Assembly (NCBI RefSeq): GCF_000719265.1
Contig: NZ_JOFL01000005.1
Span: 1 to 64,000, forward strand
DNA from: Streptomyces roseoverticillatus
Lineage (GTDB): Bacteria; Actinomycetota; Actinomycetes; Streptomycetales; Streptomycetaceae
Length of the DNA stretch: 64,000 bases
Reading direction: 5' to 3'
The notes under the pieces were generated by a model. It was not told the DNA's origin. It made no database searches and was given only the letters and a program-made list of their open reading frames with translations. A program made the translations under genes and the position numbers. Positions 15,063 to 38,097 of the stretch are shown here, one piece after another; position 1 is the first letter of the stretch; each line of letters begins with the position of its first letter.

Positions 15063-15314
15063 CGCGCTGCCGGGGCGTGCGGATGGGGCTGGACAAGCAT
15101 GGGACGACTTTAATGGCCCGTCCCCGGGACACCGCGCTCGGCCCCGCGCCGGGCGCCGCCGGCCCGTGGCCTTGACCACACCGGAGATCGCGCCGTGCGG
15201 GTGAGGGGGCTCGTCACAGATGACCTCCGGGCGCGTCCGCGCAGGTCACCGGCGGTTACCGAATGGCTTGAAGATCACTTACGGAAGTGTGGCGTGTCCA
15301 CGTATTGGCCTTTC

Positions 15315-15341
15315 CTGTCCGCTATTCGGACAGCCTTGGCC
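15315..15341 (+). promoter_or_regulatory. Palindrome and promoter of the Cys/Met leader peptide
   Basis: CTGTCCG-CTATT-CGGACAG (15315-15333) is a perfect 7-bp dyad. TTGGCC at 15336-15341 and TTTACT at 15361-15366 form a plausible weak promoter with 19-base spacing. TTTACT lies six bases before ATG 15373, so the RNA would start at the initiation codon. The rest of the region from 15063 to 15314 holds no gene that I can see. Confidence 0.5.
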
Positions 15342-15372
15342 GACTCGCACGCCTGTCTGTTTTACTTCCTGC

Positions 15373-15462
15373 ATGACCACGACGAGCAGCCGCACCTGTG
15401 CGACCGAGGCGATGACGACGCCCGGCGCTGCTCGTTGCATGTGTCGAATGTGTGACTGCTGA
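15373..15462 (+). CDS. Cys/Met-rich leader peptide, candidate attenuator
   Basis: This 29-codon frame encodes a peptide ending RCMCRMCDC. Four cysteines and two methionines fall in its last nine residues, and there is a fifth Cys at position 9. Cysteine is normally well under 1 percent of Streptomyces residues, so the clustering is striking. There is no ribosome-binding site, and the -10-like TTTACT is placed for a leaderless RNA. It is followed by about 200 untranslated bases and then the methionine-type ABC operon. By analogy with polycysteine leaderless small frames that attenuate sulfur genes in mycobacteria, ribosome stalling at these codons may control metN expression. Expression is not proven. 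Confidence 0.65.
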   Translation: MTTTSSRTCATEAMTTPGAARCMCRMCDC

Positions 15463-15665
15463 GGGCCCCCGTTCCGTGCCTCGCGCCCCGAAGCGAGACC
15501 CGTAGAGCCCGCGTCCCGCGTCCCACCGGACCGGACCGGAAGGCTCGCCCCGCGTCACCAGGACATCCCCGAAGCCGCGACCCCGTTCGCGCCCGCCGGG
15601 GCACCCTATGCCGCGCTCCGCAATGAATGCCCGTGCCCGGCCGCCCCACAGCCGCGCACTCGACA

Positions 15666-16730
15666 GTGACGGAAACCCCTGTGATCACCACTACGGGCCT
15701 GACAAAGGTCTACCGCTCACGCGGCCGCGAGGTCACCGCCCTCGACGGCGTCGACCTCCACGTGCGCGAGGGCGAGGTGTACGGCGTCGTCGGTCAGAGC
15801 GGCGCCGGAAAGTCGACCCTCATCCGCTGCGTCAACCTCCTGGAGCGGCCCAGCTCCGGCACGGTCACCGTGGCGGGCCAGGACCTCACCGCCCTCGCCG
15901 GGCGCGGCAACCGCGCCGGAGCCGAACTGCGCAAGGCGCGCAGCCGCATCGGCATGGTCTTCCAGCACTTCAACCTGCTGTCCTCGCGGACCGTGCAGTC
16001 CAACATCGAGCTGCCCCTGGAGATCCTCGGCGTCTCCGGCAAGGAGCGCGAGCGCAAGGCCCTCGAACTCCTCGACCTCGTCGGCCTCGCCGACAAGGCC
16101 AAGGCCTACCCCGGACAGCTCTCCGGCGGCCAGAAGCAGCGCGTGGGCATCGCCCGCGCCCTCGCCGGCGACCCCAAGGTGCTGCTCTCCGACGAGTCGA
16201 CGTCCGCGCTCGACCCGGAGACCACCCGCTCCATCCTGCAGCTGCTGCGCGACCTCAACCAGCAGCTCGGCCTGACCGTCCTCCTCATCACCCACGAGAT
16301 GGAGGTCGTCAAGACGATCTGCGACTCCGCGGCCCTGATGAAGGGCGGCCGCGTCGTGGAGTCCGGCACCGTCTCCGAACTGCTGGCCACCCCCGGCTCG
16401 GAGCTCGCGGCCGAGCTCTTCCCGGTCGGCGGCGAGCCCTCCGGCCCGGACCGCACCGTCGTGGACGTCACCTTCCACGGCGACGCCGCGACCCAGCCGG
16501 TCATCTCCCAGCTCTCCCGTACGTACAACATCGACATCTCGATCCTGGGCGCCGCGATGGACACCGTCTGCGGCAAGCAGGTCGGCCGGATGCGCATCGA
16601 GCTGCCCGGCCGCTTCGAGGAGAACGTCGTCCCGATCGGCTTCCTGCGCGAGCAGGGCCTCCAGGTCGACGTCGCCGACGTCAAGACCCCGGCGCCCGCC
16701 GACGAGCTCCTGAAGGATGGTGCCAAGTGA
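15666..16730 (+). CDS. metN: Methionine-type ABC transporter ATPase
   Basis: This 354-residue ATPase energises import. It has Walker A GQSGAGKSTL, Q-loop FQHFNLL, signature LSGGQKQRVGIARAL and Walker B VLLSDESTSALDPET. A C-terminal NIL domain from about residue 265 (VVDVTFHGDAATQPVI) is the ligand-sensing domain of MetN and gives trans-inhibition by methionine. I favour GTG 15666; GTG 15681 is also possible. Its stop overlaps the permease start (GTGA). With the permease and NlpA lipoprotein it forms a D-methionine/L-methionine importer, although other sulfur amino acids cannot be excluded. Confidence 0.88.
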   Translation: MTETPVITTTGLTKVYRSRGREVTALDGVDLHVREGEVYGVVGQSGAGKSTLIRCVNLLERPSSGTVTVAGQDLTALAGRGNRAGAELRKARSRIGMVFQHFNLLSSRTVQSNIELPLEILGVSGKERERKALELLDLVGLADKAKAYPGQLSGGQKQRVGIARALAGDPKVLLSDESTSALDPETTRSILQLLRDLNQQLGLTVLLITHEMEVVKTICDSAALMKGGRVVESGTVSELLATPGSELAAELFPVGGEPSGPDRTVVDVTFHGDAATQPVISQLSRTYNIDISILGAAMDTVCGKQVGRMRIELPGRFEENVVPIGFLREQGLQVDVADVKTPAPADELLKDGAK

Positions 16731-17503
16731 CCTGGGCCGAGATGCAGCCCCTGCTGCAGAACGCGTGTCTGGACACCCTCTTCATGGTGTGGTGGTCCAC
16801 CGTCTACACCATCCTCGGCGGCCTGCCGCTGGGCATCCTGCTGGTCCTCACCGACCGCGGCGGCCTCCTGCAGAACGTTGTGGTCAACAAGATCGTCGGG
16901 GTGGTCGTCAACCTCGGCCGCTCGCTGCCCTTCATCGTCCTCATGGTGTGGCTGATCCCCTTCAGCCGCTTCGTGGTCGGCACCTCCATCGGGCCCAGCG
17001 CGGCCGTCGTGGCCCTGGCCATCGGCGCGATCCCGTTCTTCGCCCGGCTGGTGGAGACCGCGCTCCGCGAGGTCGACCACGGTCTCGTCGAAGCCGTCCA
17101 GTCCATGGGCGGCGGCACCTGGACCGTGATCTTCAAGGTGCTGCTCCCGCAGGCCCTGCCCTCCGTCATCGCGGGCCTGACCACCACGATCATCGCCCTC
17201 ATCGGCTACTCCGCGATGGCCGGCGCGGTCGGCGGCGGCGGCCTGGGCAACCTGGCCATCGTCTACGGCTACCAGCGCTCCGAGACCGGCCTGATGAACA
17301 TCACCATCGTGCTGCTCATCGTCATCGTCACCCTCGTCCAGCTCGCCGGCGACCTCGCCGTGCGGACCCTCGCCCGGCGCGGCGGACGGCAGGCGGCCCC
17401 CGTGGGGCTGCGCCGCCTGTTCGCCCCCGCGCGCACCACGGCGAAGCCCGTGGCGACCGTCCCGGCCCAGGCCGAGGCGCCGGAGGCCGCCAAGCTCTCC
17501 TGA
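16727..17503 (+). CDS. metI: Methionine-type ABC transporter permease
   Basis: This 258-residue permease has five or six membrane segments and the EAA coupling loop EAVQSMGGGTWTVIFKVLLPQALP near residues 123-146, which contacts the ATPase. GYSAMAGAVGGGGLGNLA near residue 165 is characteristic of MetI. The C-terminal 45 residues are an Ala/Pro/Arg-rich cytoplasmic tail beyond the usual 217-residue family length. It is translationally coupled to the ATPase gene by a four-base overlap. Confidence 0.87.
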   Translation: MTWAEMQPLLQNACLDTLFMVWWSTVYTILGGLPLGILLVLTDRGGLLQNVVVNKIVGVVVNLGRSLPFIVLMVWLIPFSRFVVGTSIGPSAAVVALAIGAIPFFARLVETALREVDHGLVEAVQSMGGGTWTVIFKVLLPQALPSVIAGLTTTIIALIGYSAMAGAVGGGGLGNLAIVYGYQRSETGLMNITIVLLIVIVTLVQLAGDLAVRTLARRGGRQAAPVGLRRLFAPARTTAKPVATVPAQAEAPEAAKLS

Positions 17504-17515
17504 CCCGCAAGACTT

Positions 17516-17563
17516 CCTGATCGGAGCTGATCAGGCCTGGCACCGAGGGGCTTTTCGCCCCTC
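17516..17563 (+). terminator. Two hairpins between permease and lipoprotein genes
   Basis: A 7-bp stem (cctgatc/gatcagg, 17516-17535) is followed by GAGGGGC-ttttc-GCCCCTC (17545-17563). Both lie in the 141-base gap inside the operon. They may protect upstream mRNA or partly terminate transcription, allowing separate levels of lipoprotein. Confidence 0.5.
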
Positions 17564-17644
17564 ACCGCAGCACCACGAGCCCGGACCCTTTGCCGGGCGC
17601 AACACCTCGTGAACCCAGGAAAACCAGAAAGAGGGGCACTCTTC

Positions 17645-18520
17645 GTGCGTACCACCGTCAAGCTCACCGCCGCCGTCGCGGCCGCCGCCGCACTCACCCT
17701 CGGCCTGAGCGCGTGCAGCGCTCCGTCCGACACCTCCTCGTCCGGCAGCTCGTCGAAGAAGGGCAAGGACGCCGACCCGGCCGCCAAGCTCGTCGTCGCC
17801 GCCAGCCCGACCCCGCACGGCGACATCCTCAACTACGTCCGCGACAACCTCGCGGAGAAGGCCGGCCTGAAGCTGGAGGTGAAGGAGTTCAACGACTACG
17901 TGCTCCCCAACACCGCCACGCAGAACGGCGAGGTCGACGCCAACTTCTTCCAGCACAAGCCGTACCTCGACGACTTCAACAAGAAGAACAAGACGGACAT
18001 CGTCCCCGTCGTCAACGTCGAGATCGAGCCGCTCGGCCTGTACTCCGAAAAGGTAAAGAAGGCCGGCGACCTCGGCAGCGGCGCGACCATCGCCGTGCCC
18101 AACGACGCCACCAACGAGGGCCGCGCCCTGAAGCTGCTGGCCGACAACGGCGTCATCGTCCTCAAGGACGGCGTCGGCGCCGCCGCCAAGCTGTCGGACA
18201 TCAAGGACGACAAGGGCGTGAAGTTCACCGAGCTCGAGGCCGCCCAGATCCCCTCGCGCCTCGCCGACGTCGACGCCGCCGTCATCAACGGCAACTTCGC
18301 CATCGGCCACAAGCTCAACCCGGCCAAGGACGCCATCGCCCTGGAGAAGGCCGACGGCAACCCCTACGCCAACTTCCTCGCCGTGAAGAAGGGCAACGAG
18401 GATGACCCGCGCGTCCAGAAGCTCGCCAAGCTCCTGAACTCCGACGAGGTGAAGAAGTTCATCGAGCAGAAGTTCAGCAACGGTGCGGTCCTGCCCGCCT
18501 TCGGCGCGGTGAAGAGCTGA
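17645..18520 (+). CDS. metQ: NlpA-family methionine-binding lipoprotein
   Basis: This 291-residue lipoprotein is the extracellular substrate receptor. The signal peptide ends in lipobox LSAC, with the lipidated Cys near residue 23, followed by a Ser-rich linker. The NlpA domain starts KLVVAASPTPHGDILNYV and includes FNDYVLPNTATQNGEVDANFFQHKPYLDDF, whose parts are typical of MetQ. GTG 17645 is the best start because the signal peptide then begins with RTTVK. It closes the operon and is followed by a strong terminator. Confidence 0.88.
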   Translation: MRTTVKLTAAVAAAAALTLGLSACSAPSDTSSSGSSSKKGKDADPAAKLVVAASPTPHGDILNYVRDNLAEKAGLKLEVKEFNDYVLPNTATQNGEVDANFFQHKPYLDDFNKKNKTDIVPVVNVEIEPLGLYSEKVKKAGDLGSGATIAVPNDATNEGRALKLLADNGVIVLKDGVGAAAKLSDIKDDKGVKFTELEAAQIPSRLADVDAAVINGNFAIGHKLNPAKDAIALEKADGNPYANFLAVKKGNEDDPRVQKLAKLLNSDEVKKFIEQKFSNGAVLPAFGAVKS

Positions 18521-30729: not shown

Positions 30730-30801
30730 TGCGCGATACTGGGATTGAACCAGTGACCTCTTCCGTGTCAGGGAAGCGCTCTCCCGCTGAGCTAATCGCG
30801 C
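30730..30801 (-). tRNA. tRNA-Val (GAC), copy 3 in transcription order
   Basis: The complement folds into a 72-base tRNA: acceptor GCGCGAT/ATCGCGC, D arm AGCTCAGCGGGAGAGC, anticodon stem CTTCC/GGAAG with loop CTGACAC (anticodon GAC), and T arm ACTGGTTCAATCCCAGT, with discriminator A. CCA is not encoded. It is identical to the copy at 30924-30995. Confidence 0.95.
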
Positions 30802-30823
30802 GGGAAGGTCCGTGAAGACCTGG

Positions 30824-30895
30824 TGGACGATACTGGGATTGAACCAGTGACCTCTTCCGTGTCAGGGAAGCGCTCTCCCGCTGAGCTAATCGTCC
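30824..30895 (-). tRNA. tRNA-Val (GAC), acceptor-stem variant
   Basis: The body is identical to the flanking tRNA-Val genes, but the acceptor stem is GGACGAT/ATCGTCC instead of GCGCGAT/ATCGCGC. The changes on the two strands compensate each other, so all seven pairs are kept. The discriminator is A and the anticodon GAC. Confidence 0.95.
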
Positions 30896-30923
30896 GGGAT
30901 GCCCTGCGAAGACGCAGGTAGCG

Positions 30924-30995
30924 TGCGCGATACTGGGATTGAACCAGTGACCTCTTCCGTGTCAGGGAAGCGCTCTCCCGCTGAGCTAATCGCGC
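30924..30995 (-). tRNA. tRNA-Val (GAC), copy nearest tRNA-Gly
   Basis: This 72-base tRNA is identical in sequence to that at 30730-30801. Its 5' flank (cgggaaggtccg in the + orientation) is also shared with that copy, showing that tRNA plus flank was duplicated. Confidence 0.95.
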
Positions 30996-31001
30996 GGGAA
31001 G

Positions 31002-31074
<73 letters not shown>

Positions 31075-37332: not shown

Positions 37333-37404
37333 GGGCGATTAGCTCAGCGGGAGAGCGCTTCGTTCACACCGAAGAGGTCACTGGTTCGATCCCAGTATCG
37401 CCCA
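37333..37404 (+). tRNA. tRNA-Val (CAC), first copy
   Basis: A complete 72-base tRNA: acceptor GGGCGAT/ATCGCCC, anticodon stem CTTCG/CGAAG with loop TTCACAC (anticodon CAC), T arm ACTGGTTCGATCCCAGT, discriminator A. It is identical to the copy at 38026-38097. Confidence 0.95.
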
Positions 37405-37407
37405 CAC

Positions 37408-37453
37408 AGGACAGAGGGTCCGCAAGGTTCACCCCTTGCGGACCCTCTGTCCT
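37408..37453 (+). terminator. 20-bp-stem terminator after tRNA-Val
   Basis: Two perfect 20-base arms (37408-37427 and 37434-37453) with loop ttcacc form one of the strongest hairpins in the window, starting four bases after the tRNA. The next gene begins only 19 bases later. Confidence 0.85.
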
Positions 37454-37471
37454 TCGGTGTCCGCTGGTCCC

Positions 37472-37963
37472 ATGCCCTCACCGGCCCTCTCCCGGATCCA
37501 CCGCTACCGCTTCCATGGCTCGTGGGCCCTCGCCGCCCCGCCCGACACCGTCTACGCCCGCCTCGAAGCCGTCGAGGGCTACCCCCGCTGGTGGCCGCAG
37601 GTCCGCGAGGTCCACCAGGCCGACGCCACCTCCGGCACCGCCCGCATCCGCTCCTTCCTCCCCTTCGACCTGACCGTGGCCGTCCGCTCCACCCGGCACG
37701 ACCCCGCCGCCCGCGTCCTGGAGATCGCCATGACGGGCGACATCGAGGGCTGGGCCCGCTGGACCGTCCTCCCGCAGGGCCCCGCGGCCTCCACCGCCCG
37801 CTACGAGCAGGACGTCGAGGCCCGCAAGCCCCTCCTCAGGCGCCTCGCCCTGCCCGCCAGACCCTTCTTCGCCGCCAACCACGCCTGGATGATGCGCACC
37901 GGCCGGCGCGGCCTGCAGGCCCTGCTGGCCGACCGGCCGGCCGGCGGTGCGGGAGGGATTTGA
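37472..37963 (+). CDS. SRPBCC/START-like ligand-binding protein
   Basis: This 163-residue protein has the pattern of polyketide-cyclase/START-like proteins: an initial strand (YRFHGSWALAAPPDTVYARL), EAVEGYPRWWPQVREV and a long C-terminal helix. It has no signal peptide. The ligand or reaction is unknown. The gene fits tightly between two identical tRNA-Val (CAC) genes and follows a 20-bp terminator, so its own promoter must lie within the hairpin region or expression depends on read-through. Confidence 0.75.
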   Translation: MPSPALSRIHRYRFHGSWALAAPPDTVYARLEAVEGYPRWWPQVREVHQADATSGTARIRSFLPFDLTVAVRSTRHDPAARVLEIAMTGDIEGWARWTVLPQGPAASTARYEQDVEARKPLLRRLALPARPFFAANHAWMMRTGRRGLQALLADRPAGGAGGI

Positions 37964-38025
37964 TGGAGGGCCGCCACGACCTGTATTGTTCAGTGCGTTG
38001 CCGGGGGAAACCCCGCACGAATCCC

Positions 38026-38097
38026 GGGCGATTAGCTCAGCGGGAGAGCGCTTCGTTCACACCGAAGAGGTCACTGGTTCGATCCCAGTATCGCCCA
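38026..38097 (+). tRNA. tRNA-Val (CAC), second copy
   Basis: Identical over all 72 bases to the tRNA at 37333-37404. A TATTGT -10-like hexamer lies at 37984-37989. Confidence 0.95.

Follow-up and report, generated by a model that had tools for sequence, protein, structure and literature searches.

We find that the methionine importer operon metNIQ of Streptomyces roseoverticillatus is preceded by metL, a short reading frame that ends in clustered Cys and Met codons and is conserved across the Streptomycetaceae. We consider it quite probable that this element is a leaderless leader peptide whose translation senses the methionine supply, and probably also the cysteine supply, and controls metNIQ. 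Its best reading is a ribosome-mediated attenuator that would sense charged tRNA-Met and probably tRNA-Cys too; the frame carries the regulatory codons of such a leader, and the attenuation idea is a reasonable one. The element is likely an RNA-level control on methionine uptake in Streptomyces, in a phylum whose methionine operons, according to the available text of a 2005 comparative study, showed no conserved upstream RNA structures (PMC1262725). The stretch of DNA analyzed here (the window) is 64,000 nucleotides long. The leader and the operon lie on its plus strand:

15373..15462, plus strand, metL leader peptide of 29 codons, presumed leaderless as in S. lividans
15681..16730, plus strand, metN, ATP-binding protein with ABC_tran and NIL domains, GTG start
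16727..17503, plus strand, metI, permease with domain PF00528 (BPD_transp_1), its GTG start overlapping the metN stop
17609..18520, plus strand, metQ, substrate-binding lipoprotein with domain PF03180 (Lipoprotein_9)

For metQ, the best NCBIfam models are MetQ/NlpA, with scores under the curated cut-offs. The frame 16717-17520 was rejected as metI, having no domain match; it is 16727-17503 that matches PF00528 instead.

A mixed Cys/Met sensor upstream of metNIQ had been put forward in the first-pass annotation as something new. Novelty of the element is not supported: it has already been published as metL of S. lividans TK24, in a report whose first author we take to be Droste. The available text of that report (PMC8079986) places metL (SLIV_29928) upstream of metNIQ, gives its peptide as MSTTSDRTPATEATTTPGARCMCRRMCAF with a leaderless start, and describes several hairpins, no typical Rho-independent terminator, an unclear mode of termination, and dependence on methionine. 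The window has the same arrangement, with a short frame directly 5' of the same operon, in the same place, that encodes an orthologous peptide; the MSTTSDRTPATEATTTPGARCMCRRMCAF peptide itself is encoded identically in L114, L132, L150, L175, and L186. The published description covers one genome and, in its available text, stresses methionines and threonines, without mention of Cys codons, conservation, the CGA-AUG ending, or the upstream palindrome (PMC8079986). Our results go beyond it in the breadth of the element, in that Cys always accompanies Met, in the near-invariant CGA-AUG ending both inside and outside the family, and in the palindrome. We found no further description of the metL element, and none of a mixed Cys/Met codon leader, of the CGA before the last Met, of the 5' stem that ends at the Cys codons, or of the palindrome, in the literature within our coverage, which excludes most subscription papers.

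Mycobacteria reportedly have leaderless polycysteine short ORFs, with contiguous Cys codons, upstream of sulfur genes, as Canestrari is said to have described in 2020. As far as that partial account goes, metL resembles them in being short and in carrying Cys codons upstream of sulfur genes; that it would be leaderless as well agrees with its promoter spacing and with what is published for its orthologue. Unlike these ORFs, whose contiguous Cys runs precede cys operons, the window leader precedes a methionine importer and has its Cys interspersed among Met and Arg, and its end, RCMCRMCDC, has no contiguous Cys run. Other Cys leaders are reported, in the available texts, from mycobacteria, P. 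acnes, and B. longum, where the mycobacterial cys operons are without a conserved terminator hairpin (PMC1262725), and from Rhodobacterales, as a Cys uORF before cysS (PMC8632094). With trp/his-type attenuators, the window leader shares leader codons for the operon's substrate and a stem that joins these codons to the 5' end of the leader; it differs from them in its presumed leaderless start and in that no U-tract terminator was found.

Translation of the frame gives MTTTSSRTCATEAMTTPGAARCMCRMCDC and then a stop. As first annotated, its last nine residues comprise four Cys and two Met, and Cys is indeed rare in this DNA, at 0.95% of codons in the long high-GC3 frames of the window (Met, 1.6%). 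None of 3000 dinucleotide shuffles of 15133-15680 reaches this count of six; the shuffle maximum for the last nine residues of the best short frame is four (7 of 3000). Among short frames of 10 to ~80 amino acids on both strands of the window, the leader stop is the only one with at least five Cys plus Met in nine residues. Further in-frame starts are present upstream (e.g., 15220), and the conserved block starts at the ATG at 15373. A profile search with the leader peptide gave no NCBIfam match. Directly upstream lies a promoter:

15356..15366, plus strand, promoter box TCTGTTTTACT, with -10 hexamer TTTACT and without a clear -35

The remaining positional claims of the first-pass annotation were likewise borne out: TTTACT (15361-15366) sits six bases 5' of the ATG, no GGAG-like ribosome site is seen by eye 5' of that ATG, and the gap put at about 200 bases measures 218, from the leader stop to the metN GTG at 15681. 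The leaderless look agrees with what is published for the S. lividans orthologue (PMC8079986, available text), and by that analogy the leader transcript would start at the A of the ATG, with which the -10 spacing agrees. TCTG lies directly 5' of TTTACT in the window, and TCTGNTTTACT-N6-ATG has one exact copy genome-wide. A promoter scan of the metL upstream region found no sigma-70-type two-hexamer site.

We find the leader in nearly all Streptomycetaceae loci examined. A search of 295 genomes of the genus gave 288 with a metN match, and the upstream regions of the best 109 of these 288 were examined (29 loci first fetched plus the next 80 best-scoring, a set in which close relatives by metN are over-represented). 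Together with 15 of 80 named metN loci (13 Streptomyces and two Kitasatospora) and the window, the leader frame is present in 125 of 125 loci, with frames chosen by likeness to the leader peptide. TTTACT lies 6 or 7 nt 5' of the leader ATG in 123 of them, the two exceptions, L005 and L157, having one-base variants of it. Class and family searches, which partly overlap with the genus-set genomes, recovered the leader in 85 of 86 Streptomycetaceae loci: 84 by a script that required at least two Cys/Met after residue 8, so that tail counts are biased, and L307 by eye, with a variant -10. Frame selection took no account of which codon precedes the last Met. The family search covered 150 genomes from 17 genera; metN was found in 15 genera, and the leader in at least one locus of each of these 15.

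The resulting 209 locus entries, in which some genomes occur twice, reduce to 154 distinct leader versions, on which the counts below are made; these are related and not independent. It had been proposed that frame, start, and Cys/Met codons would be conserved while the flanks drift, and this is the pattern we observe, since it is the spacer and the N-terminal half of the peptide that vary from genus to genus. Loss of the codons in related genomes, the outcome named as speaking against the element, did not arise: all 154 versions have at least one Cys and at least one Met in their last 14 residues, with at least two Cys in 149 and at least two Met in 138. The tail has on average 2.9 Cys and 2.2 Met per 14 residues, compared with ~0.3 of each in the rest of the peptide. 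Read in its other two frames, the tail has 0.00 Met per 14 residues but 2.0 (frame +1) and 1.0 Cys; the argument from frame is thus strong for Met and weak for Cys. A better argument for Cys comes from Cys-rich leaders with different N-termini in other genera, for example L313 and L317. The trait is kept despite unlike N-termini in L313 (MFTTAHISGTAATATGCRCMCRSCQMCRMCGC) and L299 (MTATTNWTPTGTLPAGERAMCRRMCHC), both from other genera. The remaining one of the 86 loci, L289, is without the promoter and the leader 5' half, yet keeps the ...CGTATGTGTCGAATGTG end.

The end of the leader is marked by a particular codon pair:

15445..15450, plus strand, CGA-ATG, a rare Arg codon and the last Met codon, followed by three further codons and the stop

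The codon 5' of the last Met is CGA in 153 of the 154 distinct versions and CGC in one. CGA makes up 2.7% of Arg codons in the long high-GC3 frames of the window, and one of 184 Arg codons in the leader bodies of the 154 versions. Because the versions are related, 153 of 154 does not amount to as many independent events; more weight lies in the occurrence of the ending across 15 genera and outside the Streptomycetaceae. Earlier Arg-Met pairs can use CGC (L279 and L288), which ties the choice of CGA to the last pair. Leader stems explain part of the T-ending codons of the second half (GGT, GCT, CGT, and TGT in most relatives), but they leave CGA-ATG unexplained, as the ending persists where its supposed partner is missing. 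Three residues follow the last Met in 141 versions and two in 13, and the first of these is Cys in 124 and Arg in 30. Since the final CGA-AUG is near-invariant and the next residue is not, Met sensing appears better supported than Cys sensing.

In Streptomyces, CGA is presumably decoded by inosine wobble. We tentatively suggest a widespread dual sensor of sulfur amino acids, in which the CGA-AUG pair close to the stop would keep the P site occupied by an inosine-adenine wobble until Met-tRNA arrives, the synonymous codon would set the sensitivity, and the Cys codons would add a cysteine input. Support for CGA as a slow codon comes from the Salmonella his leader, in which, according to the available text of PMC4046918, Arg-Arg pairs with CGA lost more attenuation than CGU or CGC pairs, although strong stalling was also seen with a single CGU in one context. 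If there is such a CGA-AUG gate, selection would here have fixed a single rare synonymous codon in nature so as to tune an attenuator, and the effects of codon context on stalling could be tested in a native system. Dual Cys/Met sensing, if true, would tie the methionine importer to the state of both sulfur amino acids.

The ending is also found outside the family. We examined 33 of 35 listed metN loci from other families (L328 is incomplete), and a search for frames with CGN-ATG one to four codons before a stop gave seven matches. CGA-ATG followed by two or three codons and a stop, with a usable start, occurs in five of the 33 loci (L242, L250, L253, L256, and L320), in frames of otherwise unlike sequence; L251 has the CGA-ATG ending and no usable start, and L259 has CGT-ATG. 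On the reverse strand, none of the 33 loci has the ending; when the set was shuffled 200 times, 0.045 loci had it on average and never more than one. Cys/Met-rich frames of another shape, without the CGA-ATG ending, occur in L243-L246 and L248, and weaker Cys/Met-containing frames in L247, L249, L261, and L330; the remaining loci of the 33 mostly have no such frame. These candidate leaders suggest that the CGA-ATG ending is older than the Streptomycetaceae or arose more than once.

We find several candidate structures in the leader RNA and in the spacer:

15380..15437, plus strand, leader RNA stem pairing codons 3-6 with codons 19-22, 11 bp in the window, with inner hairpins
15480..15497, plus strand, hairpin 1, CTCGC-GCCCCGAA-GCGAG, directly after the leader, a single exact copy in the genome
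15633..15659, plus strand, hairpin 2, GTGCCCGGC...GCCGCGCAC, just 5' of the metN ribosome site
15660..15665, plus strand, TCGACA, complementary to TGTCGA (15442-15447) in the leader

The window leader (15373-15442) folds with z = -3.81, and one of 200 shuffles folds as well. Over the 154 versions, the leader 5' half has a mean z of -1.96 and falls below -1 in 128 (mononucleotide shuffles). When 123 distinct sequences, mostly from Streptomyces, were scanned for helices of at least six pairs, codons 3-6 paired with the stretch running up to the first Cys of the tail in 110, and two segments of the leader each paired with one arm of hairpin 1, in 100 and 95, respectively; these helices overlap, and some weaker pairings exist besides. 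Covariation support for the leader stem is moderate. Pair changes among the 127 TEA-type versions run from G-C to A-U in 19 and from A-U to G-C in 3, and stem cells are paired in 92.3%, against a shuffle mean of 90.7%, with 0 of 500 shuffles reaching 92.3% in a control that ignores relatedness. Kitasatospora-type leaders have a different fold, similarly placed, with another inner hairpin. Of 107 distinct Streptomyces versions, 91 keep hairpin 1 as an exact 18-mer, loop included, and 104 keep its core CGCCCCGAAGCG; among the 47 other versions, the counts are 22 and 23, respectively. Hairpin 2 forms in the spacer fold and keeps its position, while its sequence differs in the relatives shown; its region has z < -1 in only 79 of 154 versions.

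In the attenuator that we favor, RNA polymerase would start at the A of the ATG, and the translating ribosome would open the computed 5' stem, which ends at the Cys/Met codons. A shortage of charged tRNA-Met or tRNA-Cys would slow the ribosome on the last codons, most strongly when its P site holds the slow CGA and its A site the last AUG. A ribosome stalled there might alter the fold or the protection of the downstream leader RNA, such that metN is expressed. This might act by relieving Rho-dependent or structure-dependent termination, or by freeing the metN start region. Counting against this reading, a terminator scan found no intrinsic terminator between the leader and metN, and shuffled sequences fold as well as the 228 nt 3' of the leader stop (z 0.0). 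The many versions outside Streptomyces that lack hairpin 1 or the pairing of the leader with TCGACA, the weak frame-specificity of Cys, and the modest stem covariation count against it as well. C exceeds G in the spacer of all 154 versions. An argument for a Rho site from this C-richness was rejected, because the highest C/G in 78-nt windows has a median of 1.95 in the spacer (n = 39), which equals that of metN coding sequence (1.92, n = 78).

It is possible, rather than probable, that tRNA-Met alone is read and that the Cys codons reflect a constraint of RNA structure on UGU/UGC beside AUG. Such a Met-only sensor would fit the last Met with its CGA, the Arg that follows it in 30 of 154 versions, and the Pro that follows it in three of the five leaders from outside the family. 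It would also fit the Cys triplets in frame +1, the coincidence of T-ending codons with stems, and the methionine dependence stated for metL in the available text of PMC8079986. Against it stands the constancy of Cys in the tail, including in genera with N-termini unlike those of Streptomyces.

Control of metN translation by one specific pairing is an alternative that we consider unlikely. Here, UGUCGA(AU)GUGYG in the leader would pair with CGCAC-UCGACA just 5' of the metN ribosome site and keep metN off until a stalled ribosome breaks the pairing. The TGTCGA/TCGACA match, which was spotted by eye prior to the helix scan, forms a helix in 84-92 of the 123 sequences, with an extension in 70; the 127 TEA-type versions have a mean duplex z of -2.6, and 110 of them have TCGACA. 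However, the 27 other versions keep the leader motif and yet have a mean z of -0.45 and TCGACA in only 2, while L101 and L124 weaken the pairing without a compensating change. The pairing would at best be lineage-limited, and we rejected it as a general mechanism because it is lost in most non-TEA-type versions.

Less likely still is a structured RNA or binding site, in which CGAAUG and the stems would form a motif for a ligand, a protein, or a small RNA and translation would be incidental. The strong synonymous conservation and the retention of CGAATG across the Streptomycetaceae are what such a motif would lead one to expect. Rfam covariance models at gathering thresholds, however, matched only tRNAs in the window, leaving the SAM riboswitch, the T-box, and other leaders unmatched and the metL region without an Rfam family. 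The fixed distance from promoter to ATG, the placement of CGA-ATG in the leader frame in 154 versions (with frames chosen by leader likeness or Cys/Met content), and the Cys/Met enrichment in leaders with unlike N-termini also argue against it. A functional small protein, such as a metal-binding peptide, is hardly credible: the clustering of Cys and Met is in its favor, but the number and spacing of Cys vary among leaders, many Cys are changed to Arg, and the peptide has no NCBIfam match.

A palindrome lies upstream of the metL promoter:

15316..15332, no strand assigned, palindrome TGTCCG-CTATT-CGGACA, -57 to -41 from the leader ATG

It resembles the published NdgR motif GTCC-N7-GGAC, and it lies near a promoter, as an NdgR target site would. 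That motif comes from ChIP-seq in S. coelicolor, with targets that include cysteine genes and metF (PMC4340878, available text). The 15-bp GTCC-N7-GGAC layout is common to the NdgR regulon palindrome and the site upstream of metL; metNIQ is absent from the published ChIP-seq list, with NdgR sites in its Table 1, in the available text (PMC4340878). Of 158 Streptomyces entries, 155 have GTCC-N7-GGAC no more than 80 bases from the ATG of the leader, as do 23 of the 51 remaining entries. The window palindrome is the sole exact genome copy of TGTCCG-N5-CGGACA. As a regulon marker the palindrome was rejected: 25 genome sites have at most one mismatch, as compared with 26 for the reversed control, and thus the motif alone marks out no regulon. 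A putative activator site at the palindrome is plausible because metL has a good -10 and no recognizable -35. This NdgR-like palindrome may represent a second control layer of metNIQ.

Searches for sister leaders in the same genome, using the promoter and ATG pattern (six-base spacer only), hairpin 1, and a CGAATG-stop pattern, gave no second convincing locus. The CGAATG-stop pattern, whose TRR admits TGG as well, has 28 matches versus 18 for the reversed control; by their printed letters, only metL among the 28 has CGAATG and then a stop. Elsewhere in the window, groups of tRNA genes lie at 30730-31071 and 37333-38097, comprising four minus-strand and two plus-strand genes. Rfam scores are near-equal within each group, with one of the four lower.
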